64,000 nucleotides of DNA from Phycisphaerales bacterium (lineage in GTDB: Bacteria > Planctomycetota > Phycisphaerae > Phycisphaerales > SM1A02), in NCBI GenBank assembly GCA_022446795.1, contig JAKVBX010000008.1, positions 1 to 64,000 on the forward strand, written 5' to 3'. Position numbers and translations under genes: made by a program. The stretch's first letter is position 1. Each line of letters starts with the position of its first letter. The notes beneath the pieces are model-generated. The model did no database searches and was not told where the DNA came from. It saw only the letters and a list, made by a program, of their open reading frames with translations. Below, piece after piece: positions 14,863 to 26,091 of this stretch.

Positions 14863-15336
14863 TCAGTGGCTTCGCAGCCAGGCCACCTTCTGCTTGACCA
14901 GGCCCGCCAACTCGGTCATCAGCCCCGGGGTCGGGATCGACCAGACCGCCCACCGGGTCGTGAATGGCTTGCAGCCGAGTTCCAGGCCCTCTCGAACCCC
15001 CCGCTTGAGACGCCGGGTGTTGATCGAGGCCACGAACTCCGGATCGATCGACATGGCCAGTTGAACATCCTCCGGGGCCGGGATGATCAGGGCCATGGGC
15101 TCCCACTCCTCCGAGGGCTCCATGAAGGCCTGCTCATCAAGCAGGTAGGACAACGTCCAATGCCAACAATCCCCGTACCAGCGGCACCGCTCCTCCATGC
15201 CGCTGTAGCCGTTGAGCATCTTCCGGAGTTCATCGAACACCTCGCAGGACTCCGGAACCAGTTCGCTCCGGAGTGCCTCGGGCGTGGGCACGTTGAATTC
15301 ATCGGTCCAGATCACCGGCTTCTGGATCTCGGTCAT
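14863..15336 (-). CDS. Hypothetical protein, 157 residues
   Basis: The start at 15336 (MTEIQKPVIW) is chosen over an upstream in-frame codon at 15417 because the extra 27 residues are low-complexity and basic. The soluble protein has a central Trp/Cys-rich patch (RCRWYGDCWHWTLSYLL) and an acidic middle (PSEEWEPMAL), ending in a region with conserved-looking RLKRGVREGLELG. No signal peptide. No family recognised with certainty. It is transcribed divergently from the response regulator gene, with a 197-base spacer between them. Confidence 0.65.
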   Translation of the reverse strand: MTEIQKPVIWTDEFNVPTPEALRSELVPESCEVFDELRKMLNGYSGMEERCRWYGDCWHWTLSYLLDEQAFMEPSEEWEPMALIIPAPEDVQLAMSIDPEFVASINTRRLKRGVREGLELGCKPFTTRWAVWSIPTPGLMTELAGLVKQKVAWLRSH

Positions 15337-15533
15337 TGGGCGGCTCCGATCGGGAAAGGGAGTGGGAACCGCGTATTGTAGGACCCGGCAGGGGTCACGT
15401 GGGCGCCCTGCCGGCAATCACCCCATTGAGGGGTCCCCGGCGGGCAGTACCGGTATCATGGCCCGCAGCCGACGCCCGGACCGGTCACGGGCAAGCAGCC
15501 CGGAGGTCCGATTCCTCCCCGGAGCCGATTCCC

Positions 15534-16058
15534 ATGAGCGACGCCCCGACGACGACGCCGCCCGATCTCAGCACCGCCACCATCCTCATCGTCGATGACA
15601 ACCAGCAGAACCTCGAGCTCATGCAGGCCTATCTCGAGGACCTTGGCTGCCGGATCGTCACCGCAACCGACGGGGATGAAGCCATCGAGATGGTTGATCA
15701 GTCCAACCCGGACCTGATGCTGCTCGATGTCATGATGCCCCGCGTGTCCGGGTTCCAGGTCTGCGAGAAGCTCAAGTCCCAGCCCTCGACCCGCGACATC
15801 ATCGTGATCATGGTCACCGCGCTCAACGAGGTCGGTGACTACGAGCGAGCGGTCGAATGTGGCACGAATGACTTCATCGCCAAGCCGGTCAACAAGCATG
15901 AACTCATCACCCGGGTTCGATCCCTGCTGGAACTGGGCCTGCTCAAGCGACAGTTCGACCAGTTGCCGGTCGGGGATCGTGACGCGGCAGCGGACCGAGG
16001 CCTGCTCGACGAAGGCGACAGCATGTTGCCCCCGCCAGACCCCGAGGACGACGAGTAG
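15534..16058 (+). CDS. Single-domain response regulator (receiver domain)
   Basis: 174 residues from ATG 15534. The receiver fold covers residues 15-135: acidic pocket D21/D22 in LIVDDN, phospho-acceptor D65 in LLDVMMP, T95 in VTAL and K117 in AKPVN. There is no output domain, only an acidic 38-residue tail. It should be phosphorylated by a histidine kinase or accept phosphate in a relay; no kinase gene is adjacent. The pattern DVMMPRVSGFQVCEKLK and the NDFIAKP block resemble PleD/DivK-type receivers. A TATCAT -10-like hexamer lies at 15454-15459 upstream. Confidence 0.93.
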   Translation: MSDAPTTTPPDLSTATILIVDDNQQNLELMQAYLEDLGCRIVTATDGDEAIEMVDQSNPDLMLLDVMMPRVSGFQVCEKLKSQPSTRDIIVIMVTALNEVGDYERAVECGTNDFIAKPVNKHELITRVRSLLELGLLKRQFDQLPVGDRDAAADRGLLDEGDSMLPPPDPEDDE

Positions 16059-16062
16059 TCGA

Positions 16063-16806
16063 CTACTCCCACTGGCCGTTGCGGAAGCTGGACCGCTTCG
16101 CGTCGATCCCGAAGACATCGGTCAGCGGCACCGGCTCGATCACGGTCATCGGCTGGCCTTGGTGAATCTGCAACACGACCGACCAGGGCCGCTGCTCGCT
16201 GCCGAGCAACTCCCCCTGTGCCTCAAGGGTCGCGATCACCGCATCCTCGTCCAGGGTTTCGGGCCCAAAGGTCTCGCTCCGAGAGATACGCAGCGCCCAG
16301 ACACTGTCACCAGGCAGTCGCTCCGACACGGCGTCGAATCGCGCCGTCGCCTTGTCGACCGCCAAGGCCCGACGAAGGTCGGCCCGATCACCACTTCTCA
16401 GCGAAGACAGCGCGTCCACGGCGGCCATGGCGGCGTCTTCACCGGTCTCCTCGGTTTCCCCGCTGGCGGGCAGGAAGTCCACGTCACTGCTCCAGGCACG
16501 CAGGTTGGCGTCGAGCAATCGATGAACCGAGGCCTCCTTCACCAGTGGCTTGATGGCGAGAATGGCGCTCCGACGCCACCGATGCGGATCAAGATGATCC
16601 GCCAGGGCAAAGAGCCGGATCGCCAACTCCCGGTCCGCATCGTCACGGGCAATCTCCGCCACTTCTTCGCCCAACCGGAAGTACTGCTCCGGGTCAACAG
16701 GCCGAAGGTCTTCCAGGCGTTCCTTGAAGCGACTGGTCATCACGGGCGAGGCCCCCACGACCAGCAGCAGCAACAGGCCCAACACGATGGTCAACAGCGT
16801 CTTCAT
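16063..16806 (-). CDS. Hypothetical membrane-anchored protein, last gene of the Tol-like operon
   Basis: 247 residues from ATG 16806. An N-terminal hydrophobic helix (residues 1-20) ends in ASPVMTSRF and could be a signal peptide or anchor. The remainder is soluble and helix-rich: a short repeat-like section (AIRLFALADHLDPHRW) and a beta-rich C-terminus. The start overlaps the stop of the 1012-residue J-like gene by ATGA. No family recognised. Its place as the eighth gene of the minus-strand run suggests a periplasmic helper of that system. Confidence 0.75.
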   Translation of the reverse strand: MKTLLTIVLGLLLLLVVGASPVMTSRFKERLEDLRPVDPEQYFRLGEEVAEIARDDADRELAIRLFALADHLDPHRWRRSAILAIKPLVKEASVHRLLDANLRAWSSDVDFLPASGETEETGEDAAMAAVDALSSLRSGDRADLRRALAVDKATARFDAVSERLPGDSVWALRISRSETFGPETLDEDAVIATLEAQGELLGSEQRPWSVVLQIHQGQPMTVIEPVPLTDVFGIDAKRSSFRNGQWE

Positions 16807-19800
16807 CCGGTGGCCTCCTGGTCCTCGAGGGCCCGCTGGCGAAACTCCTCCAGCACGATCCGCCAGGTCTCGCCAATCGCCTCTTCCACGATGATCAACT
16901 GTTCCAGGACATGCCCCGCCACGGGCAACTCGACCAGCGCATCCTCCCGAACCATGGCAATCGTCGAGGCCTGCGACGGCAGCGTGATGGACCACTCCAT
17001 CGAGACCAGGTCGAGCAGGGCCACGGACCGCACCAATGCCAGTTGCAGATCGTCACCGGCCAACCGCTCCCTGGCCTCGTGCTGTTCCAGGTAGTCACGC
17101 AGAACAGCCCGATCCTCGACCGACATCTCTGCCCGGATGCGATCGACCCTTGCCTCCGCGAGGAGTGTCATGGCCTCGGCCGGCGAGATCATCAATCGTA
17201 CGGGAACCGGTTGACCGGTCAATCGAGATGACTCCTGCAGGATGGACTGGGCAATCGAATCGACCACGTCGTCGATTTCCTCGCCGCTGTCGACTCGCAG
17301 CGCCAGCGACCGCTCGACCAGCGCCCGCTTGGCGACCCACGGCCATCGCGCCGAGCCGACATCGGGAAGCTGCTGATCAACAATGAGCTCCAGGAACTCG
17401 GACTGTGTCTTGGAGACCCGGTTGCGCGGCATTTCATCGAGCAGCGCCAGGACGAGTTCCGGATCATCGAAGAACCGACGCTCAACGATCCCCCGGGCGT
17501 GGTCACGAACCGTCGAATCCTCCGTGTAGATCACCCGGGCCAGTTCAGCCGCGTCCGTGGGTGTCAACGAACCGGAACGGAACTGGAGCAGTTCATCAAG
17601 CACATTGAGCTTGGCTTCCCGCCCACGAGCCTTGGCCATGCGACGAGCCCACCCCGAGCTTGATCGCGATGGCTGACTGGGCGCTGCCTGACCGCCCGAC
17701 GGAGCAGAGGGCTGCATCGCGGGCACACCAGGTTGCTGTCGAGGCGGCGTACTCCCCCCTGCGCCACTCCCCGACCCGCCACCCGGCGATGTCGATGGTG
17801 TGACCGGTCCCGTTGGCTGGCTCGGCGAGGACGGTGCTGTCATGGGATCGGCCACGGCCGCTCCACCGGCCCGAAGTTCCACCGCCCGGATGACACCAAG
17901 CGCCGATGGGATGTTCCCATCCGCCAGGGCTGCGGCCGCCTGGTTCAATTCCCGAAGCGAACGCAGGTACCGGGCCATCTCGATCGCCGATCGACCCGGT
18001 GGGTCGTCCAACGTGTCGTCCCACATGGTGAACCAGAGATCGACGGTCCCGACGTCAAAGCCTGCGGGAAGTGGACGGATTCTTTCGTGTCGAATACGAG
18101 TCGGCACCGGCCATCGGTTGGCGAGACGATCGTGTTGCCGCCGTCGCTGGCTCTCATTGGCAGAGGGATCGACCACGCTGTCACCATCGAACCACGGCGT
18201 CTCGGCCAGCTTGGCCAGGAGACTCGTGACGACCCACAGTCGTGCCGGCGACAGGTCCGGATCAACATAGAGTGCCAGCACGCCATCACGCACCATCGCC
18301 GAGTCGGTGTAGTCCAGCGACGTAAGCAAGCGAGCAAGAATCCGACGAGTGGGACCCGGTTGCCCAACGGCCAGGCCCTCCCGAGCCAGTTCATCGGTCG
18401 CACCCAGCAGCATGGCCTGTGACCGTGCCGAGTCATCGACTGCTTCCACGCACTGCATCCAGGCCAGCCAGGCCAGTTCCGCATCATTGAAGGTCTCTGA
18501 GGCATCGATCAGGCGGGCCTTGCGAAGGTCCAACCATCGCAAGGCGGCCGGTGCGAACCCGGGACCATCGACCGCACTGATACCACGGGCCGACAGGAGC
18601 GCCCGGGCCTGTTCCCGGATGATCGGTGAGACCGTCTCGTCATCGGCGATGAGCATCGTCATCCCTGACCGCCACGAATCAACTGGTATGGCATTGACAT
18701 CCAGGTAGCCCGGTGGCTCCGGCGCCAACTCGGCCAGGAGATCATCACCAAGCTGGGCGTTGTCACCGATCACGCGGAAGACACGCTGCACGGCGGCCGC
18801 CAGTTCAGCCCGGGGCCCCGCGGTCGACAGGAACCAACCACGTGAGGCTGAATCAATCAACTCGGCGAACCGCGACTTCAAGCGTGTACTCTCGTCTCCC
18901 CCGGCGATCTCATCGGCCACCAGGTGAAGTGCCGCCGTCGTTTCCACGAGCGCATCAGCGGCATCATGCAAAGGTCGCGGCAGGGTGATGCTCGTCAACA
19001 GCACCTCGCCGGCCCCCACCACCTCGTCCATCACGAGACCACCCGTGGGCTCATCACGAACCGATGGAGAGACTGCCGCTTCCGTCCCTTCCGGTGTTGC
19101 GGCCTGAAGTTCCTCCGGCGGCGCCGCATCCGGAGTCGACAAGGCGAACCCGACGGTCAGGACCACGAGGAACAGGGCGATGACACCGAAGATGACCGAC
19201 AAGCGGGTCACGGATGCCGAATCCGCACGGCGAAGGTCTGGGGTCCATCGGTCGACGAATCGATCAAAGGCCTCCGACGCCGGTCCCTGGCTGGTCACGG
19301 CCAGGGCCGCCGCCGAGGCGGAACCGATACCGGGCTCGGCAGCGGATTCAACAGTCGTGTCTGAACTCGCCCCCTCCCGAAGCCACCTGGTCATCCCGAT
19401 GAGGACTCCCATCAATTGATCGGGCGCGACATCGTGCTGTGCAGCGAGCGCCATCAGCCTCGATCGGCTGCGACTGTTCCACCCACCGGACGCCATGAGC
19501 ACGCCAAGCACCTGCTGATCGAATTCCGTGATGGCCTTGGCATTGGCCGGTGCCGCGGACCGCTTCGCCGCTCGCAGTCGAGCAGGGACGTGTCGCGCAA
19601 GAATCGGGAGCCGAGCCTGTGGATCCAGCAACACGGCCGCCGCATCGCGGATGTGGGCCCGAACCTGTTCCGCCTCCCGCGTTCGACCATCCGGATGATC
19701 GTCGATCTGCTTTTCACGAGCGGCCCGCGCCTGAAGGATGAGGTCATCCTTGAGTTGCCCGGGATCCAGCCCGAGGACATCAATGGGATCAGCCGAGGCG

Positions 19801-19841
19801 TCCAGGCCCAGGAATCGCCGCATGGGGTCGTTCTGGCTCAT
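16803..19841 (-). CDS. Large membrane protein with N-terminal J-like (HPD) domain
   Basis: 1012 residues. Residues 20-77 read like a J domain: DPIDVLGL start, a basic helix II (AARAAREKQ type), HPD at 49-51, and a helix III ending in AAAVLLDPQAR. A single transmembrane helix lies at about 213-235, followed by a Pro/Ser/Gly-rich linker near 670-735 and helical domains at the C-terminus. The HPD loop is the contact for Hsp70 ATPase activation in true J proteins; here the match is by motif and layout only. With the N-terminus in the cytoplasm the rest would be periplasmic. Overlaps both neighbours by ATGA. No family name recognised for the remainder. Confidence 0.8.
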   Translation of the reverse strand: MSQNDPMRRFLGLDASADPIDVLGLDPGQLKDDLILQARAAREKQIDDHPDGRTREAEQVRAHIRDAAAVLLDPQARLPILARHVPARLRAAKRSAAPANAKAITEFDQQVLGVLMASGGWNSRSRSRLMALAAQHDVAPDQLMGVLIGMTRWLREGASSDTTVESAAEPGIGSASAAALAVTSQGPASEAFDRFVDRWTPDLRRADSASVTRLSVIFGVIALFLVVLTVGFALSTPDAAPPEELQAATPEGTEAAVSPSVRDEPTGGLVMDEVVGAGEVLLTSITLPRPLHDAADALVETTAALHLVADEIAGGDESTRLKSRFAELIDSASRGWFLSTAGPRAELAAAVQRVFRVIGDNAQLGDDLLAELAPEPPGYLDVNAIPVDSWRSGMTMLIADDETVSPIIREQARALLSARGISAVDGPGFAPAALRWLDLRKARLIDASETFNDAELAWLAWMQCVEAVDDSARSQAMLLGATDELAREGLAVGQPGPTRRILARLLTSLDYTDSAMVRDGVLALYVDPDLSPARLWVVTSLLAKLAETPWFDGDSVVDPSANESQRRRQHDRLANRWPVPTRIRHERIRPLPAGFDVGTVDLWFTMWDDTLDDPPGRSAIEMARYLRSLRELNQAAAALADGNIPSALGVIRAVELRAGGAAVADPMTAPSSPSQPTGPVTPSTSPGGGSGSGAGGSTPPRQQPGVPAMQPSAPSGGQAAPSQPSRSSSGWARRMAKARGREAKLNVLDELLQFRSGSLTPTDAAELARVIYTEDSTVRDHARGIVERRFFDDPELVLALLDEMPRNRVSKTQSEFLELIVDQQLPDVGSARWPWVAKRALVERSLALRVDSGEEIDDVVDSIAQSILQESSRLTGQPVPVRLMISPAEAMTLLAEARVDRIRAEMSVEDRAVLRDYLEQHEARERLAGDDLQLALVRSVALLDLVSMEWSITLPSQASTIAMVREDALVELPVAGHVLEQLIIVEEAIGETWRIVLEEFRQRALEDQEATG

Positions 19842-22447
19842 TCGCCGTCCTCCCCCGGAGGCTCACTGGCGTCTGCACCACCGACACCCAATCGAATAGC
19901 GGCCTGTCGCAATCGATCCCCCCATGGTGCCGGCCCGTACTCGGGATAAAGCGCCCGATGTTGCACCATGACCTCGCGTGCCCGCTCCGGGTCGGCCTTC
20001 TCCAGGATCTCCACGAGCGCCGTGCGGGCTTCGAACCAGTCATCGGAGCCCGAGCGACTCCCGACGGTCACGATCCGCCAGCACCGCAGTGCTTCCTCGG
20101 TGTCACCACGACTGGCGGCCAGTCGGCCACGTCCCGCAAGGAAGACCCGGTTTCGTGGCGAGTGCTCCAGGAGAGCGCCGTAGAGTTCCCAGGCGCGATC
20201 ACCTGCCGACGCATCACCACCCTGCAGCCACAGATCCGTCGCCGCCGACGCCACGGCCGAGGCGACCGAGAGTCCGATCCGGGACTCGAGCGACTCCTGG
20301 AGCGTCGCTGACTCGGCCAGCAACCGATTTCCATTGACCATGATTCGTTTGAGCGCATCGCGGACCGCCTCACCCTCGGCCTGGTCGCAGTCCTGGCGCG
20401 CTCGATCCAGGGCTCGCCGCGTGGCCAACCTCGTCCAGATGGCGTCGGGACGCCTCTGGTACAGGGTCTCGATGATCGCCTGGGCATCGGCTGTGTCATC
20501 GCGAGCGAGGGCCAGGAGGATTCGGCGATAGTCCACCTCGTCTTCCAGGTCCTGGTCCTCGACCTGGACCAGCACATCACGGTTCAGCAGAACCAGGAGT
20601 GCCGAGTCAGCCGCCACGAGACGCAGGACATCCGGATCGGTCGCAACTTCCAGCACCCGGCGAGCGCGAGCAACGCTGCGAGCCCCCGCCACCTCACCGG
20701 CAGCCGAATAGTCCTCCTGCATCATCGGAACCGCAACGACCAGGTAATCGCTGGCGACATCGACTCGTTCCTGCCCCTTGGCAGCACGAAACAGGCGGTA
20801 CAGCATGTCCGCCGCCCGCATCTGGGCCAACGGCCGAGCAGGTGAATCCAACGGAACACGCAGCAGTTCCTCGATCCGTTCCCGTGATGGCTCTTCGCCT
20901 CGCGAGGCCCGGCGGACCATCAACTCACCGGCACGCATTCCACCGGGAAAACGCTCGAGGTACAGGTCGACCAGGCGATTCATCGTCTCGTCCGTCGCGG
21001 ATCGATCACGTTCGCATCGCCGCTCCTCGGAAACGTAGGCCATCCAGATGGCCTCGCTCGCATCCGCCTCGGGAAGGAAGCCCGCCACTTCCTCGAACAG
21101 GTTGCGGGCGTCTTCGAATCGATCCAGGTAGTAGACGGACCAGGCATAGAGAAGCTTGGCCTGCTGGCGAGCCGCACCAAACTGGTCCGCATCTGGGGCC
21201 GACAGCGCCTGCTCGATGGCCTTGGCCGCCACTCGCCACGCGTTCAGTCGATCAGGCTCGGCTACCTCCGGCACACGGTCTTCCAGTTCACGTGCTGCCC
21301 GGTAGTCGATGATGGCCCTCGCGTACCGGAACGGGAACCGGTCACCGCCAGCTGATTGACCGAAGCGGCCCACGATGTCCTGGATCTGCCCCAGTTCACC
21401 CATCGACGCCAGGTCAGCCAGGGCCTCCGCAGCCAGGGCATCCGCCGCCGGATCACCGGTGTTCTCCAGGGCATGCACGGCCGCCATGCGGACCCAGGCC
21501 ACCGGGCGTTCCGCCACCTGGTTGCCGCTGGCCCGCAACAGCCGAAAGGCCTCGTCGAATTGTCGATGCTCCAGCAGGACCGCCAACCGCCACCCGGGCA
21601 ACTGGTCACGGATATCGACCGGCACGTTCGGCAGGTCAAGAAGGTCCAACCATCGCAGGGCCGAGACCGCTGAAGATGTCACGCTGTTGGCCATCGCCAT
21701 GCCGATGATGGTCCACGCGATGGCACGCTCTGATCTCAGGTCCTGGGACACGTCACCGGGCGTGAATTCTTCCAGGTCGAGGATTGATGCGAAGTGCTGC
21801 TCGGCGCGCTCAGCATAGGGCGTCTGGCCCGTCAACCACGCGCGGTAGTACTGGCACCAGCCCAGCAGGAAGTCGATCCGGTTGAGCATCTCCTCCAGCG
21901 AATCGAGCCGGGATTGCCCGGACGACCGACGGCTCGCTCGATTGCCCGCCGTCTTCCGTGCTCGCTGGGCGCTGACATCGATCTTCTTCCGAAGATCACT
22001 CATCTCACCGATCAGATCCTCGAGTCGTTCGATGGTCCTCGCCTGCTCGGCCGCTTCCAGCAGTCGAATTCGATGTCGTTCGCCGCTCTGCTCAATCCCG
22101 AGGTAGGCACCATGGCACAGTTCCAACCGAAGCGCGTTGGCGGCCATGCCCGTGACCTCTTCCAGGAGCCGCCGCCCCCGCTCCTCGAGGCTGATACGCT
22201 CGGCCCGATCTTCGGTCTCGCTCAGCAACTCGGCGTACAACCGGGCCAGTTGAATGGCGGCCTGCCCACGGGCCTCACCGCTGAGGGTCGGCAGTCGCTG
22301 CTCCAGGTGTTCCGCAAGCAGCCTGTTCAGGCCGCGGCGTTCCAGCCAGACGTCGACCTCATCACCAGCGGCGATGGCAGGAACGATCGCCAGCAGGATG
22401 ACCGCGCACCATGTTGACCATGATGGCCCTCGGCTGGCTCCCCGCAT
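19838..22447 (-). CDS. Secreted helical repeat (TPR-like) protein of the Tol-like operon
   Basis: 869 residues from ATG 22447; an in-frame ATG at 22477 overlaps the upstream exbD-like gene by 17 bases and would add ten residues. Either way a hydrophobic segment followed by AIAAGDE suggests a signal peptide. After a region with coiled-coil character (about residues 140-210, ERLEDLIGEMSDL) come many helical pairs with TPR/SEL1-like Ala and Leu spacing (LLYAWSVYYLDRFEDARNLF, LAASRGDTEEALRCW). It is probably a periplasmic scaffold. Stop overlaps the next start by ATGA. No enzymatic motif seen. Confidence 0.8.
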   Translation of the reverse strand: MRGASRGPSWSTWCAVILLAIVPAIAAGDEVDVWLERRGLNRLLAEHLEQRLPTLSGEARGQAAIQLARLYAELLSETEDRAERISLEERGRRLLEEVTGMAANALRLELCHGAYLGIEQSGERHRIRLLEAAEQARTIERLEDLIGEMSDLRKKIDVSAQRARKTAGNRASRRSSGQSRLDSLEEMLNRIDFLLGWCQYYRAWLTGQTPYAERAEQHFASILDLEEFTPGDVSQDLRSERAIAWTIIGMAMANSVTSSAVSALRWLDLLDLPNVPVDIRDQLPGWRLAVLLEHRQFDEAFRLLRASGNQVAERPVAWVRMAAVHALENTGDPAADALAAEALADLASMGELGQIQDIVGRFGQSAGGDRFPFRYARAIIDYRAARELEDRVPEVAEPDRLNAWRVAAKAIEQALSAPDADQFGAARQQAKLLYAWSVYYLDRFEDARNLFEEVAGFLPEADASEAIWMAYVSEERRCERDRSATDETMNRLVDLYLERFPGGMRAGELMVRRASRGEEPSRERIEELLRVPLDSPARPLAQMRAADMLYRLFRAAKGQERVDVASDYLVVAVPMMQEDYSAAGEVAGARSVARARRVLEVATDPDVLRLVAADSALLVLLNRDVLVQVEDQDLEDEVDYRRILLALARDDTADAQAIIETLYQRRPDAIWTRLATRRALDRARQDCDQAEGEAVRDALKRIMVNGNRLLAESATLQESLESRIGLSVASAVASAATDLWLQGGDASAGDRAWELYGALLEHSPRNRVFLAGRGRLAASRGDTEEALRCWRIVTVGSRSGSDDWFEARTALVEILEKADPERAREVMVQHRALYPEYGPAPWGDRLRQAAIRLGVGGADASEPPGEDGE

Positions 22448-22460
22448 GGAATGGCTCGTG

Positions 22461-22880
22461 CTATTCCATCGGGACATAGGTCACCTCTTCGAAACCGGCA
22501 TCACGCGCGGCCTGGATGGCCGCCATGGCAAATCCAACGGAAATCCCGCTGCTCCCCCGGATGAACACACCCAGGTCGGTCGGCAGGTTCGCAAGCTTCT
22601 CCTCCAACTGCTCCGGTGACACCATGTCATGCTGCCCCAGTCGATAGGTCGGCACGTTGTTCACCAGCATCACTTCGACGACCTGTGGCTGGAAGTCCGC
22701 GGCATCCCCACTGACTGATTCATCCTGGGTCCGGATCGTCGGATTCAACCGATCCTCCGGACGGGAAATCACCATCGAGACCATGAAGTAGACCAGCAGC
22801 AGGAAGGTCACGTCGATCAGGCTGGTCATGTTCATGACCAGTCGCTTTCCACGGTCTTGGTTTCGGGCGGTGAACTTCAC
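22461..22880 (-). CDS. ExbD/TolR-family biopolymer transport protein (second copy)
   Basis: 139 residues from a GTG at 22880, four bases after the previous stop; an upstream in-frame codon at 22925 would overlap the previous gene. A basic N-terminus is followed by one transmembrane helix with the family Asp (NMTSLIDVTFLLLVYFMV), the proton-channel residue of TolR/ExbD. A periplasmic domain with VEVMLVNN...GFEEVTYVPME follows. It would work with the TolQ-like protein to convert proton flow into motion across the envelope. Overall layout matches ExbD, and the paired copy next door suggests a heteromeric motor. Confidence 0.9.
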   Translation of the reverse strand: MKFTARNQDRGKRLVMNMTSLIDVTFLLLVYFMVSMVISRPEDRLNPTIRTQDESVSGDAADFQPQVVEVMLVNNVPTYRLGQHDMVSPEQLEEKLANLPTDLGVFIRGSSGISVGFAMAAIQAARDAGFEEVTYVPME

Positions 22881-22884
22881 GGAT

Positions 22885-23304
22885 CTACCTTGGCACCTCG
22901 GTCGCGATACGAGCGGATGACACACCAGCCTCGTCCAGCACCCGGATCACCTCGTTGAAAACCTTCATGGGCCCCTGCCGGTCCGCTCTCACCGTGACTC
23001 GCGGCGTCTCTTCCCCGGCGACATGCAGGCGGACCCGCTTCGCCAATTCGTCCATGGAAATCGGATCCTCCGAAGTGGACAGCACGATATTGCCGGCCTC
23101 ATCGATGTTGATGAACAGGCCTGCTTCCTCTGATTGTTCCAATTGCTCCCCGGCAAGCCGGGGCAATTCCACATCCGCTCGCGCATCGCGAGCGAATTCC
23201 GACGTGACCATGAAGAAGATGATCAACAGGAAGACGATGTCCACCATCGGCGTCAGTTCCAGCAGCAGCCGGCGATCTCGCTTTCCAACCGGGGTCAGCC
23301 GCAT
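22885..23304 (-). CDS. ExbD/TolR-family biopolymer transport protein (first copy)
   Basis: 139 residues. The N-terminal helix carries LTPMVDIVFLLIIFFMV with the conserved Asp, and the periplasmic domain has FINIDEAGNIVLSTSEDPI and the family end VIRVLDEAGVSSARIATEVP. Its ATG shares one base with the stop of the TolQ-like gene (TGATG), a tight coupling. Together with the TolQ-like product it should form a proton-driven stator of the ExbBD/TolQR/MotAB class in the inner membrane. Confidence 0.93.
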   Translation of the reverse strand: MRLTPVGKRDRRLLLELTPMVDIVFLLIIFFMVTSEFARDARADVELPRLAGEQLEQSEEAGLFINIDEAGNIVLSTSEDPISMDELAKRVRLHVAGEETPRVTVRADRQGPMKVFNEVIRVLDEAGVSSARIATEVPR

Positions 23305-24029
23305 CAGCCTGTCCTCGCGCCCATGGCCGGCGCCATGTTGCTTCCGGCCACCGCACCACTTTCCAGGTGGGTCACCAGGCGTTCCACTTCACGACCCGCC
23401 TCGGAGGCCAACGCATCGATCCGGTTGCGGAACCACGTGAACAGGGCGACACAGGGGATGGCCAGGGCCAGCCCCATCAAGGTCGTGACCAGCGCCATGC
23501 TGATGTTCGCCGCCAACTGTTCGTAGTTGGATCCGCCGCTCATGGACATGGACTCGAAGGCGCCGACCATGCCGATGACCGTTCCGAGCAGACCCAGCAG
23601 GGGCGAGATCGTACCGATCACGCCCAGTCCGTCTGTCGATCGGTAGAGCCTCGCAGCCTGGTCCTGCCCCGCTTCCTCGATGGCGTTCTTGATCTCGAAG
23701 ACCCCGAACGCGGATGCCTGGTACCGCGATAGTCCGGCCGACAGCACCCGGGTCAGGAACGAGTCATTCGCAGGATCCATGCAGTAGGCCGTGGCCCCCT
23801 CGATGTCTCCTGCCAGGAGTCGCTCATCGACTTCCTTGAGTTGCTGGGCCGGCAACAGTGTCGGCCGACGAATCTGGATGAAGTGCACGATGCACAACGC
23901 CAGCGCGATGATGCTCAAGGCAATGATGATGAATCCGACCGGGCCACCATCCATGACGGTGTCCCACCACGTGCGTGCCGCCGCGGCATCAGGATTCACG
24001 GTGCCAAGCATGACATGAACAACTGTCAT
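23304..24029 (-). CDS. TolQ/ExbB/MotA-family proton channel protein
   Basis: 241 residues. The helices are at about 28-50 (GFIIIALSIIALALCIVHFI) and two in the second half around the family core (GVIGTISPLLGLLGTVIGMVGAF and ISMALVTTLMGLALAIPCVALF). The conserved P-L-L-G-L-L-G-T-V-x-G-M pattern is the MotA_ExbB signature. It energises the two ExbD-like partners encoded just downstream. Start overlaps the upstream secreted-protein gene by ATGA. It could serve Tol-type outer-membrane constriction, TonB-type import, or another envelope motor; the VWA protein heading the operon argues for a dedicated system. Confidence 0.94.
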   Translation of the reverse strand: MTVVHVMLGTVNPDAAAARTWWDTVMDGGPVGFIIIALSIIALALCIVHFIQIRRPTLLPAQQLKEVDERLLAGDIEGATAYCMDPANDSFLTRVLSAGLSRYQASAFGVFEIKNAIEEAGQDQAARLYRSTDGLGVIGTISPLLGLLGTVIGMVGAFESMSMSGGSNYEQLAANISMALVTTLMGLALAIPCVALFTWFRNRIDALASEAGREVERLVTHLESGAVAGSNMAPAMGARTG

Positions 24030-25150
24030 CGGGCGTCTGCCTCCTTTGCTGTGACCGCGCCGAGTGGATCACTCGTGCGATTCACAGGATGATTGGGATA
24101 CGTTCTCTTCAATTCGGCCTCGAGACGCATGGCGGCCTTCAAATCGCCTTGCGCGGCCAGTTCGCGGGCCATGATAGCCAGCGCTACCCCTGCCAGATAT
24201 GGATGTGACCGGCCGTGCCGGGCCGGCAACCACGCCAGTTCGACCAGGCCCTGCCGGCGAAGTCCTTCGCCGGGTTCCAACAGCAGCGACGTTCCGAGCA
24301 TGTACCGGAACAGCGGCTCCTGCCAGTCATCCCGTCGCGACAACTGGTGGCGAAGATCGCCCTGGGCTGATCGTCGGGCTGTTGACGAAGCGCGTCGAGA
24401 TTCGATGGCCAGCCTCAGCACGTTTGGCAACGACGAGTCACCACCCCCGGTTTCGGTTTCGGAAGAAGGCGTTTCGACACTGTCCGGGATCGTGCCGCCG
24501 GCATGTTCCGCCAGGATGCGATAGCCCTCGGCGATATTCGCGAGTCGCTCGTCACCACCGGACTTCCACTGCTCCAACTGCTGGATGAGCCTGGTTGTCG
24601 ACACCTGGTCGGTCCAGGGCGGCGCCAGGAACACGCAGAGCGAAGTGGCCTCGTCATACACGGGCACGAGATCGTCGTAGCGATCCGACTTGATCCCCAG
24701 CCGCCGCAACCGCGCCGTCTCCAATGCCGGCAGGTAGGCCTCCAGGATCGCGCCACGATTGAGCCGGGACCGAAGCAGTCCCTCCGCAATGATCAGGTCG
24801 GTCTCGCCCCGTCGTTCGGGCGAGGCCACGAAGAGCCGTTCGAAGATCGGTTCCGCCAGGGCCGCATCACCACGCTGCAGTCGTGATCGAGCCCGCCAGA
24901 TATCCTCCGCACGCTTCATCCGCTCGGTCATGGAACCGGGGGTCGCCGCGGCGGAGTCAAAGCGGACGGCCCGGATCACATCCCAGGCCACCTGCCGACG
25001 CTTGCCATCGAGGGTCTCGATCCGCAGGGCGGAGTCATCCGAGGCCTGGATGGTCCCGGTCAATTCACCCTGTCCATCCCGCAGCACGACGACATCTGCC
25101 GCCATGGCCGACGAGACCAGGAACACGATGATGAGAAGACCCAGCCTCAT
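24026..25150 (-). CDS. Secreted hypothetical protein, second gene of the Tol-like operon
   Basis: 374 residues. A signal peptide is clear (residues 1-17, LIIVFLVSSAMAAD). Residues 18-60 form a small beta-rich module (VVVLRDGQGELTGTIQASDD, then ALRIETLDGKRRQVAWDVI), very like the N-terminal module of the HtrA-like protease at 38.9-39.9 kb. The remainder is helical with TPR-like spacing. It overlaps the VWA gene upstream and the tolQ-like gene downstream by ATGA each. No known enzyme motif; a periplasmic structural or peptidoglycan-side component is a reasonable guess from context. Confidence 0.78.
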   Translation of the reverse strand: MRLGLLIIVFLVSSAMAADVVVLRDGQGELTGTIQASDDSALRIETLDGKRRQVAWDVIRAVRFDSAAATPGSMTERMKRAEDIWRARSRLQRGDAALAEPIFERLFVASPERRGETDLIIAEGLLRSRLNRGAILEAYLPALETARLRRLGIKSDRYDDLVPVYDEATSLCVFLAPPWTDQVSTTRLIQQLEQWKSGGDERLANIAEGYRILAEHAGGTIPDSVETPSSETETGGGDSSLPNVLRLAIESRRASSTARRSAQGDLRHQLSRRDDWQEPLFRYMLGTSLLLEPGEGLRRQGLVELAWLPARHGRSHPYLAGVALAIMARELAAQGDLKAAMRLEAELKRTYPNHPVNRTSDPLGAVTAKEADAR

Positions 25151-26091
25151 CGAACCGCCCTCGCCGGGACAAACCGGTAGGTGCCATCCGAATCGCGGGC
25201 GATCTGCTCCAGGAGCGCCTGGCTCTCGTCATTGGCGAAGGCAATCGTGTTGATGACCGCGGGCCGGCGGATCTTGTTCAGCTTGGCCACGTCGGCTGCG
25301 GTCATGCTGTTGATCTGGCCATCCGTCAGGAAGAAGATCACATCCGGAGGAGGATCCAGCGAGAAGACCTCCTTGAAGGACCCGTATGGGAAAGTCCCGC
25401 CGGAGGCCGTGATCTCGTCAATCCAGTTGGTCACCGCCCGAACCTGGGTCCGACGAGCACGCAACCAGCCGGTCTGGAACGGCGGCATCGCCATGCGATC
25501 GGAATAGAACACGACGACGAACTCGGCATAGTCCGGCAGTTCACGCAGCGATCGCTTGAGTTCATCCTGGGCCTGCGTAAGACGGGCGTTGGCCATCGAG
25601 CCGGATCGATCGACGATATAGGCGAAGCGTCGACCTTCGCTGGCGATACCGAAGAAGGACGCCGCCCCACCGGCACCGCCAAGGGCCCCTCGGCCACTGA
25701 CGCCACCCTGCCCGGACCCACCCAGGGTCGGCGTGGCTCCCACGTCCGATTCAGAGAGTTCCGCGGCCGACGACTCCTCGGGCGCCGCAGTGTCGGGCTC
25801 AAGCACCGAATCCAGTTCGGACCAGGACTCGGGGTCCGGCTCTGACAGGTCGGTCTCGGTCAGGCTGGTCAGTTCCTCGACCGTTCGTATGGTCGGAAAC
25901 TCCATGACCATCTCGACCACCTGGGGCGGTGGCGGCTCCCGCTCGATCAGGTGCAGGTAGATCATGACCCCGATATGGACGACCACCGAAAGCCCGGCAC
26001 CAATGCCCAACAGTTGCCAGAATCGCCGCTTGGCCACCTCTCGGCGAAGCCACTCGGCCTGGTCAACCTGGATGCGGTCACGGGAGGGCAT
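25147..26091 (-). CDS. Membrane-anchored VWA-domain protein with TonB-like N-terminus
   Basis: 314 residues. One transmembrane helix lies at about 28-48, followed by a PPPPQVVEMV stretch like that of TonB-type proteins and an acidic, Ser-rich linker to residue 135. The von Willebrand A domain starts near 150 with the MIDAS motif DRSGS at 161-165; later metal-site residues appear in the ASGGT and FLTDGQ regions. VWA domains bind ligands through a metal ion. As the first gene of an eight-gene operon with TolQ/ExbD homologues, it is likely the transducer that links the proton motor to a periplasmic target. That role is inference. Confidence 0.88.
   Translation of the reverse strand: MPSRDRIQVDQAEWLRREVAKRRFWQLLGIGAGLSVVVHIGVMIYLHLIEREPPPPQVVEMVMEFPTIRTVEELTSLTETDLSEPDPESWSELDSVLEPDTAAPEESSAAELSESDVGATPTLGGSGQGGVSGRGALGGAGGAASFFGIASEGRRFAYIVDRSGSMANARLTQAQDELKRSLRELPDYAEFVVVFYSDRMAMPPFQTGWLRARRTQVRAVTNWIDEITASGGTFPYGSFKEVFSLDPPPDVIFFLTDGQINSMTAADVAKLNKIRRPAVINTIAFANDESQALLEQIARDSDGTYRFVPARAVR

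Follow-up and report, generated by a model that had tools for sequence, protein, structure and literature searches.

A putative vWA-type force-transducer operon with a J-like tail in a Phycisphaerales bacterium

Which protein takes the place of TonB or TolA where a TolQ/ExbD-type motor is encoded beside neither of them? The question is raised by an operon on the minus strand of a 64,000-nucleotide stretch of DNA from a Phycisphaerales bacterium (assembly GCA_022446795.1, contig JAKVBX010000008.1, positions 1 to 64,000), hereafter called the window. Reading of the open reading frames (ORFs) between 26091 and 16063 gave eight tightly packed genes, g1 to g8, that form a single operon: a VWA protein (g1), a secreted protein (g2), a TolQ-like (g3) and two ExbD-like motor proteins (g4, g5), an exported helical protein (g6), a large membrane protein with a J-like N-terminus (g7) and a further exported protein (g8). 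With a probability of about 0.68, we take this operon to encode, in a long variant, a vWA-type force transducer that spans the envelope and is driven by protons. Such 'vWA force transducers' were proposed for the Planctomycetota, Verrucomicrobiota and Chlamydiota (PVC) group by Williams-Jones et al. 2025 (PMC12204202), who predicted a transducer with a motor-binding motif encoded beside a TPR gene, tolQ and two unlike tolR genes.

The VWA protein and its motor

The features that carry this reading are the VWA protein and the three motor genes:
25147..26091, minus strand: g1, putative VWA force transducer, 314 residues (Pfam VWA_3, 3e-12; VWA-type chains of the PDB by profile; conserved order).
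25975..25989, minus strand: S35-V-V-V-H39 in the g1 membrane helix, the Ser/His half of the TonB/TolA 'SHLS' motor-binding motif (alignment of 18 VWA proteins).
25171..25623, minus strand: VWA domain of g1, residues 157-307 (Pfam VWA_3; 18-row alignment).
23304..24029, minus strand: g3, TolQ/ExbB-like motor protein, 241 residues (Pfam MotA_ExbB, 1.4e-28; ExbB/TolQ chains of the PDB).
22885..23304, minus strand: g4, first ExbD/TolR-like protein, 139 residues, membrane Asp in ELTPMVDIVF (Pfam ExbD, 6.9e-24).
22461..22880, minus strand: g5, second ExbD/TolR-like protein, 139 residues, GTG start, membrane Asp in NMTSLIDVTF (Pfam ExbD, 1.5e-12).

The g1 protein has a short cytosolic N-terminus, one membrane helix, a Pro/acidic linker of about 110 residues and a C-terminal VWA domain. 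S35, H39, D161, S163 and S165 are invariant across 18 diverse VWA rows and D257 is nearly so; D161, S163, S165 and D257 are presumably the residues of the VWA metal site. Our sample comprised 101 genomes of the class, and gene context was taken for 60 of the 100 non-window genomes, one locus each, at the best VWA match listed. A VWA gene was found at most 3.5 kb from a TolQ gene on the same strand in 45 of these 60 loci; with three further loci (L007, L010, L011) this gave 58 TolQ-adjacent VWA ORFs in 48 loci. All 58 have [SA]xxxH in the membrane helix, 56 with Ser and 2 with Ala. In the first transmembrane segments of 197 other ORFs of the 60 loci, which were called mechanically and are not all genes, SxxxH occurred in 2 and AxxxH in 4, and among the other proteins of the operon [SA]xxxH occurred in this segment in 2 of 101 ExbD, 2 of 51 TolQ and 4 of 27 g2/g6/g8 proteins. 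The strict DxSGS pattern is present in 49 of the 58 ORFs, and in these 49 the linker between helix and VWA domain has a median length of 107 residues.

TonB and TolA use such a Ser/His motif to bind their motors (PMC12204202). As its helix carries the TonB/TolA-type Ser-x3-His, g1 is most likely the partner of this kind for the motor: the sequence gives good support for its coupling to the motor, and g1 is very probably the TonB/TolA equivalent. Tandem VWA genes were seen at two loci, four in L054 (G001) and two in L071 (G009); five of these six are without a Ser-x3-His helix, and TolQ was not seen there.

The residues of the motor are largely preserved. The membrane-helix Asp is present in 100 of 101 ExbD rows (95 by pattern, 5 by eye), and 46 of 48 TolQs have the pattern GxxG[TS]V. 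The lone exception to the Asp is an Asn in the second ExbD-like protein of L069 (4931-5386, G068; NLTPVVNVAM), whose partner has the Asp. The best named models are TolQ and TolR (TIGR02796, 8e-19; TIGR02801, 8e-16), both far below cut-off. In a TolQ tree of 58 rows, from which the long-branch rows L008, L140 and L104 were left out, the 12 TolQs of long-form operons, that is those with the g7-g8 tail, fell on one side of a branch with the other 46 rows on the opposite side (support 100/99.3); the label was set by hand for 3 of the 12 (L047, L052, L056). The window TolQ is far in this tree from the TolQ of a second, short-form set on contig C8 of the same genome. Three consecutive ExbD-like genes instead of two were seen in the short-form loci L060, L063, L073 and L074.

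Gene order, long form and short form

The earlier note on this DNA described eight minus-strand genes without a real gap, and all eight ORFs were indeed found at the positions it gave. Its count of five junctions sharing four bases was one too high, since there are seven junctions in all and ATGA is common to four of them (g1/g2, g2/g3, g6/g7, g7/g8). The other three had been read correctly: g3 and g4 share a single base, g4 and g5 are separated by a 4-base gap that is followed by the GTG start of g5, and g5 and g6 overlap by 17 bases or lie 13 bases apart, depending on the choice of the g6 start. The longer g6 is favoured, because the 17-base overlap recurs in both named relatives, L010 and L011, which are metagenome-assembled genomes titled Phycisphaerae and Phycisphaerales. 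The window lies on contig C77 of the host genome (G000; 3.54 Mb, 78 contigs, 95.96% complete, 3.39% contaminated).

The VWA profile matched 99 of the 101 class genomes. The full eight-gene order, whose conservation the earlier note had left to be checked, is kept across two families of the same taxonomic order: it was found in seven of the 101 genomes (G000 and G084 of family f1; G096, G032, G003, G046 and G013 of family f2) and in L010 and L011. It cannot be a chance arrangement, as it is kept although g2, g6 and g7 of these relatives are just 21-32% identical to those of the window. In all nine f1/f2 loci tested pyrH adjoins g1, divergently in eight and co-directionally in L045, which points to vertical inheritance of the operon.

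Reduced long forms occur in four more class genomes (G056, G017, G008, G090). G056 (family f18) and G017 (f10) have the set VWA-TolQ-ExbD-ExbD-TPR-J-like-exported, without g2, and in G017 (L052) the ExbD pair is split by an extra ORF of 323 residues that presumably resembles a REP-associated transposase. G008 (f11) has the same set without g2 up to the J-like gene, followed by another gene that we take to be MsrA-like. A g7 profile matched 13 of the 101 genomes, or 11 when two (G057, G099) are subtracted whose J-like proteins are not beside TolQ and which were not counted as long forms; the matches of G000, G084, G096, G032, G003, G046, G013, G008, G017 and G056 are given by construction, these sequences being in the profile, as are most second-round model scores for the loci L045-L064. 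Families f3 and f4 of the same taxonomic order, sampled with seven genomes, gave no match to the g7 profile. At the level of the phylum, with at most four candidates scored per genome, it matched 12 of 199 genomes; six of these are outside the class, four of the six matching within the first 90 residues only.

The tail of g7 and g8 is lacking in 36 of the 45 class loci that have the core. From these comparisons, the core is VWA, g2, TolQ, ExbD, ExbD and TPR, and g7 plus g8 are the long-form tail; g2 and TPR are included because g6 and g2 have relatives at profile level in the short form. The g2 gene is missing from many loci, and VWA and TolQ are often directly adjacent. Contig C8 of the host genome carries a VWA-TolQ-ExbD-ExbD set followed by an exported protein of 824 residues without a Pfam match, and extra VWA-TolQ copies accompanied by a single ExbD gene or by two are found, away from the long form, in G096, G084, G056, G017 and G008. 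Free variation of the tail genes between relatives had been named as an argument against a dedicated eight-part system. Within f1 and f2 the tail does not vary in this way, yet 88 of the 101 class genomes have no match to g7.

The periplasmic proteins and the tail

Families were assigned by a Pfam search of the window proteins, and g2, g6, g7 and g8 gave no match above cut-off. They were described by other means:
24026..25150, minus strand: g2, secreted protein, 374 residues, small N-terminal domain and TPR-like helices (DUF6897-like, below cut-off; profile match to short-form genes).
19838..22477, minus strand: g6, exported all-helical TPR-type superhelix, 879 residues (AlphaFold2, Foldseek, profile comparison).
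16803..19841, minus strand: g7, inner-membrane protein, 1012 residues, cytosolic J-like N-terminus, one transmembrane helix (216-234) and a long helical periplasmic part (transmembrane prediction; orthologues).
19557..19841, minus strand: J-like N-terminal region of g7, residues 1-95, HPD at 49-51 (profile comparison with J-domains).
16063..16806, minus strand: g8, exported protein, 247 residues, N-terminal hydrophobic stretch (conserved place in relatives).

The long-form g2 profile matched the gene at the same place in three short-form loci with E 2.8e-5. The AlphaFold2 model of g6 is all-helical (mean predicted local distance difference test score, pLDDT, 72.5), and Foldseek retrieved helical-repeat proteins, among them a Campylobacter flagellar periplasmic scaffold (E 2.3e-5). 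The TM-scores were low (0.24-0.27 for this scaffold) and the root-mean-square deviations large; therefore, the fold type alone was taken from this search. A profile of seven long-form g6 proteins matched the TPR proteins of the same three short-form loci with E 7.8e-8 over 495 columns, an unrelated pair giving E 0.51 as control; two of the three short-form proteins were tested with Pfam, and both match TPR. A g6-like gene (E 6e-17) followed by a J-like one was also seen outside the class, in G237, at the end of a contig.

The window alone cannot show that g7 begins with a J-like region, as the earlier note had it, but profiles built with relatives lend the likeness some support. The N-termini were compared with 16 true J-domains of the same genomes; L046, with a truncated ORF start, and L049, where the region is absent, were left out. 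Six J-like N-termini from outside f1/f2 aligned with the real J-domains over their full length (E 4.8e-9) and the pooled 14 rows, these six plus eight from f1/f2, gave E 2.3e-7; the eight f1/f2 rows alone reached E 0.0084, with five control segments at E 0.04-0.45. PF00226 did not match g7 in a search of eight genomes. HPD is confined to the window and its two named relatives, L010 and L011. The remaining f1/f2 rows shown, L049 excepted, have HPL, HPQ, HRY or HRF, and L047, L052 and L056 have no HPD. Stimulation of an Hsp70 is therefore not to be assumed; HPD as proof of co-chaperone activity was rejected, the tripeptide not being conserved among the J-like rows. Between the g7 profile of f1/f2 and that of L047/L052/L056 the alignment is limited to the first 150 residues (E 4.5e-5, probability 69). 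The structural model of g7 (mean pLDDT 52.2) was too weak and was not used, and its Foldseek search returned nothing at E 0.001 or better; the matches listed were mostly of HEAT/ARM type, and this too was left aside. A related arrangement was seen at L159 (3550-6180, G057), where a gene for a fusion of a J-like with an FGE-sulfatase domain lies directly downstream of an Hsp70 gene; it fits the notion that the planctomycete J-like module is a relative of the J-domain.

The proteins at the place of g8 in G056 and G017 have CxxCxGxG repeats (Pfam DnaJ_CXXCXGXG, 0.018 and 0.0033, below cut-off); of two aligned f2 proteins one has two CxxC sites and the other a single site; and the four f1 proteins have no CxxC outside the signal region, the window g8 being without a cysteine motif. 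A profile comparison between g8 of the window lineage and the CxxCxGxG proteins did not support homology (probability 4.5, E 0.009). Orthology is thus assigned by position only, although the series of cysteine sites is suggestive. Downstream of g8, at 15336-16058 on the plus strand, a convergent gene that is response-regulator-like by eye is found, and its relatives adjoin the operon end in L010, L011 and L046.

The operon among known systems

The earlier note had found no TolA, TolB, Pal or TonB partner in the operon and advised a search of the remaining genome. TolB_N had no match in any of the 11 long-form genomes; TonB_C and the TonB-receptor barrel (PF00593) had none in the host genome, TonB_C being present in 4 of the 11 and the barrel present in 4 and unmatched in 7. 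The genome being 96% complete, the absence of TolB_N, TonB_C and the TonB receptor from it is likely, not certain. The statement that no such partner exists is nevertheless misleading, as the VWA protein is most likely that partner. MotA/ExbB-type genes stand at five places in the host genome: in this operon, in the short form on C8, and once each on C1, C34 and C10. The C1 place is MotA by Pfam, beside MotB- and FliP-like ORFs recognised by eye. No Pal-type gene lies beside any TolQ of this genome; of its three OmpA-family places, one is beside the flagellar MotA and two are on C45, which has no TolQ-type place. On C34 (L008, 8194-10154) a lone TolQ-like gene overlaps a gene of 414 residues that we assume to resemble TraB-type proteins, with no ExbD seen, and on C10 (L009, 8411-10103) short ExbB-like and ExbD-like genes are followed by a Pro-rich ORF. 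This ORF has AIGLH within a hydrophobic segment and may encode a divergent TonB-like protein. A Tol-Pal or TonB locus was considered for the operon and rejected on the results for TolB_N, TonB_C and the TonB receptor.

The closest likeness is to the vWA transducers of PMC12204202. These, too, have a Ser/His transmembrane helix, a linker and a C-terminal VWA fold (its Fig. 4a,b), next to tolQ, a TPR gene and two tolR genes that are unlike each other; g6 is counted here as the TPR gene from its fold and profile match, without a Pfam TPR match of its own. The linker, about 100 residues and disordered in that description, agrees in length with the median of 107 found here. The VWA gene is downstream of the motor genes there, whereas it leads the operon here. 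A second vWA family of that paper consists of VWA and TolQ alone, with an Asp in the transpore helix, unlike the operon with its ExbD pair and its Ser/His helix. The VWA/TolQ/ExbD/ExbD/TPR core was already predicted there (PMC12204202). The long form with g2, J-like g7 and exported g8 looks new: the section of the paper that proposes the class does not mention g2, the J-like membrane protein or g8, and DnaJ, J-domain and Phycisphaer do not occur in its main text. Among the matches listed, literature titles revealed no other paper on the vWA-transducer class and none that connects an operon of this kind with a phenotype; the main texts of the essential-gene papers on Planctopirus and Verrucomicrobium do not contain TolQ, biopolymer, TonB or von Willebrand.

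With TonB-ExbB-ExbD the operon shares the motor family and the Ser/His helix, but it has two ExbD genes and VWA in place of TonB_C. Tol-Pal resembles it in that TolQ and TolR are the best named models and in its periplasmic TPR partner, as in CpoB (PMC12204202); unlike Tol-Pal, the operon has VWA in the place of TolA.

Several findings weigh against the reading as a vWA transducer. Twenty VWA ORFs have no TolQ close by, and [SA]xxxH is present in 12 of them: three near a contig end, one in G090, one spurious-looking (L006) and seven (L054, L065, L083, L088, L089, L090, L101) with neither a contig end nor a motor gene seen nearby. Of SHLS, conservation extends to the Ser/His half only; of the 58 TolQ-adjacent ORFs 12 have Leu at H+7 and none has Ser at H+11 (the L091 row was misread), and the window g1 has L46 at H+7 but E50 at H+11. 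This is not disqualifying, because the full SHLS is carried by many, not all, vWA transducers (PMC12204202). The second Thr-containing TolQ pattern, A-L-x-T-T, is present in just 29 of 48 TolQs. In a 61-row tree that includes L008, L140 and L104, the very long-branched L140 is placed beside the long forms; the long-form label then needs two changes, not one. The presence of TonB_C and of the TonB receptor in 4 of 11 long-form genomes each means that a replacement of Ton is not general. Finally, G090 keeps g1 (SVLVH), g2, g6, g7 with its J-like part gone, and g8; TolQ and both ExbD genes are missing, and where they would be (L049, 13659-14121) g2 and g6 are joined directly, sharing GTGA. Since the rest is kept in G090 although the motor genes of the operon are gone, the eight genes do not have to work as a closed set; two TolQ-ExbD-ExbD sets of another TolQ clade lie elsewhere in this genome, and the operon may borrow a motor or be decaying. 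The term 'dedicated envelope motor' fits the window, because the order is conserved, its TolQ has a clade of its own and TolB_N, TonB_C and the TonB receptor are unmatched in the host; as an eight-part unit it is divisible, as G090 and the tail-less core loci demonstrate.

It is tempting to think of gliding, which is the guess of the authors of PMC12204202 for vWA transducers. The AglRQS motor of Myxococcus (AglR 245, AglQ 162, AglS 194 residues) has the same make-up of one TolQ and two ExbD proteins, and several TPR proteins (AgmU, AglT, AgmK, AgnA) belong to the system (PMC3169522). The operon would then be a gliding or surface-adhesion machine like Agl-Glt, in which motor, TPR proteins, a connector from cytosol to periplasm and the VWA adhesin together move adhesion complexes along the cell. 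In the wider Agl-Glt system CglB is said to be a VWA adhesin; the VWA protein here, in contrast, is anchored in the inner membrane. By Pfam, no Glt-type outer-membrane barrel or TonB-type connector was recognised among the eight genes, the search for Glt having been confined to these; the host has flagellar-type genes, and the presence of the core in 45 of 60 fetched class loci suggests a housekeeping job. We consider gliding improbable. An import machine, in which large substrates enter through an outer-membrane transporter that the VWA domain opens as TonB would, appears slightly more doubtful again: the motor-binding motif is TonB-like and TonB_C is unmatched in the host, but no transporter or binding protein was recognised in the operon by Pfam, and 7 of 11 genomes, the host included, are without a match to the receptor barrel.

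The tail invites another explanation, a motor-coupled chaperone or export device in which the J-like part and the CxxCxGxG protein found in relatives, both derived from DnaJ, hand clients to, or regulate, a puller driven by the proton motive force. The profile match to real J-domains, the CxxCxGxG proteins that G056 and G017 have in the position of g8 and the J-like protein beside an Hsp70 gene in G057 would agree with it; the lack of HPD outside the close kin of the window, the failure of PF00226 to match g7 in eight genomes and a window g8 without cysteine motif or supported homology do not, and we regard it as unlikely, if worth keeping in mind. A wider version, in which a VWA transducer absorbed DnaJ-derived parts (the J-like g7 and an ancestrally secreted g8 of CxxCxGxG zinc-finger type), linked pulling by the proton motive force to client handling and replaced Tol-Pal in Phycisphaerae, is a speculation to which we give little credence. 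That VWA, TolQ and ExbD are mere neighbours, a promiscuous VWA gene beside an ordinary ExbBD pair, is strongly disfavoured. VWA domains are common and the family is mixed, 8 of the 20 non-adjacent ORFs being without the motif; against this, the order is kept across many families, the motif is present in every linked copy, and relatives of g6 and g2 travel with the set.

For the vWA force transducer, we infer the following working model. By analogy, five copies of TolQ would surround an axle of ExbD1 and ExbD2, and protons passing the two membrane aspartates would turn or move it. The g1 membrane helix would dock on the side of the motor via Ser35/His39, as TonB and TolA do, and the acidic/Pro linker would carry the VWA domain into the periplasm, where its metal site could grip a periplasmic or outer-membrane partner and thus pass force outward. 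The TPR-type superhelix g6 together with g2 might serve as periplasmic scaffold or clutch. As a second inner-membrane component, g7 would link a J-like domain in the cytosol with a long solenoid in the periplasm and probably couples the machine to a cytosolic regulator or client, Hsp70-type or other, with g8 as an exported accessory. The likeliest job would be Tol-like maintenance of the outer membrane or envelope in a lineage without recognisable Tol-Pal or Ton.

The locus bears on how diderms without Tol-Pal or Ton energise their outer membrane. It offers a defined set of eight genes, a test of the Ser35/His39 motif and, in G090, a natural case of motor loss for testing vWA transducers. The J-like and exported tail suggests that vWA machines have accessory modules beyond those in the section of PMC12204202 that proposes the class.

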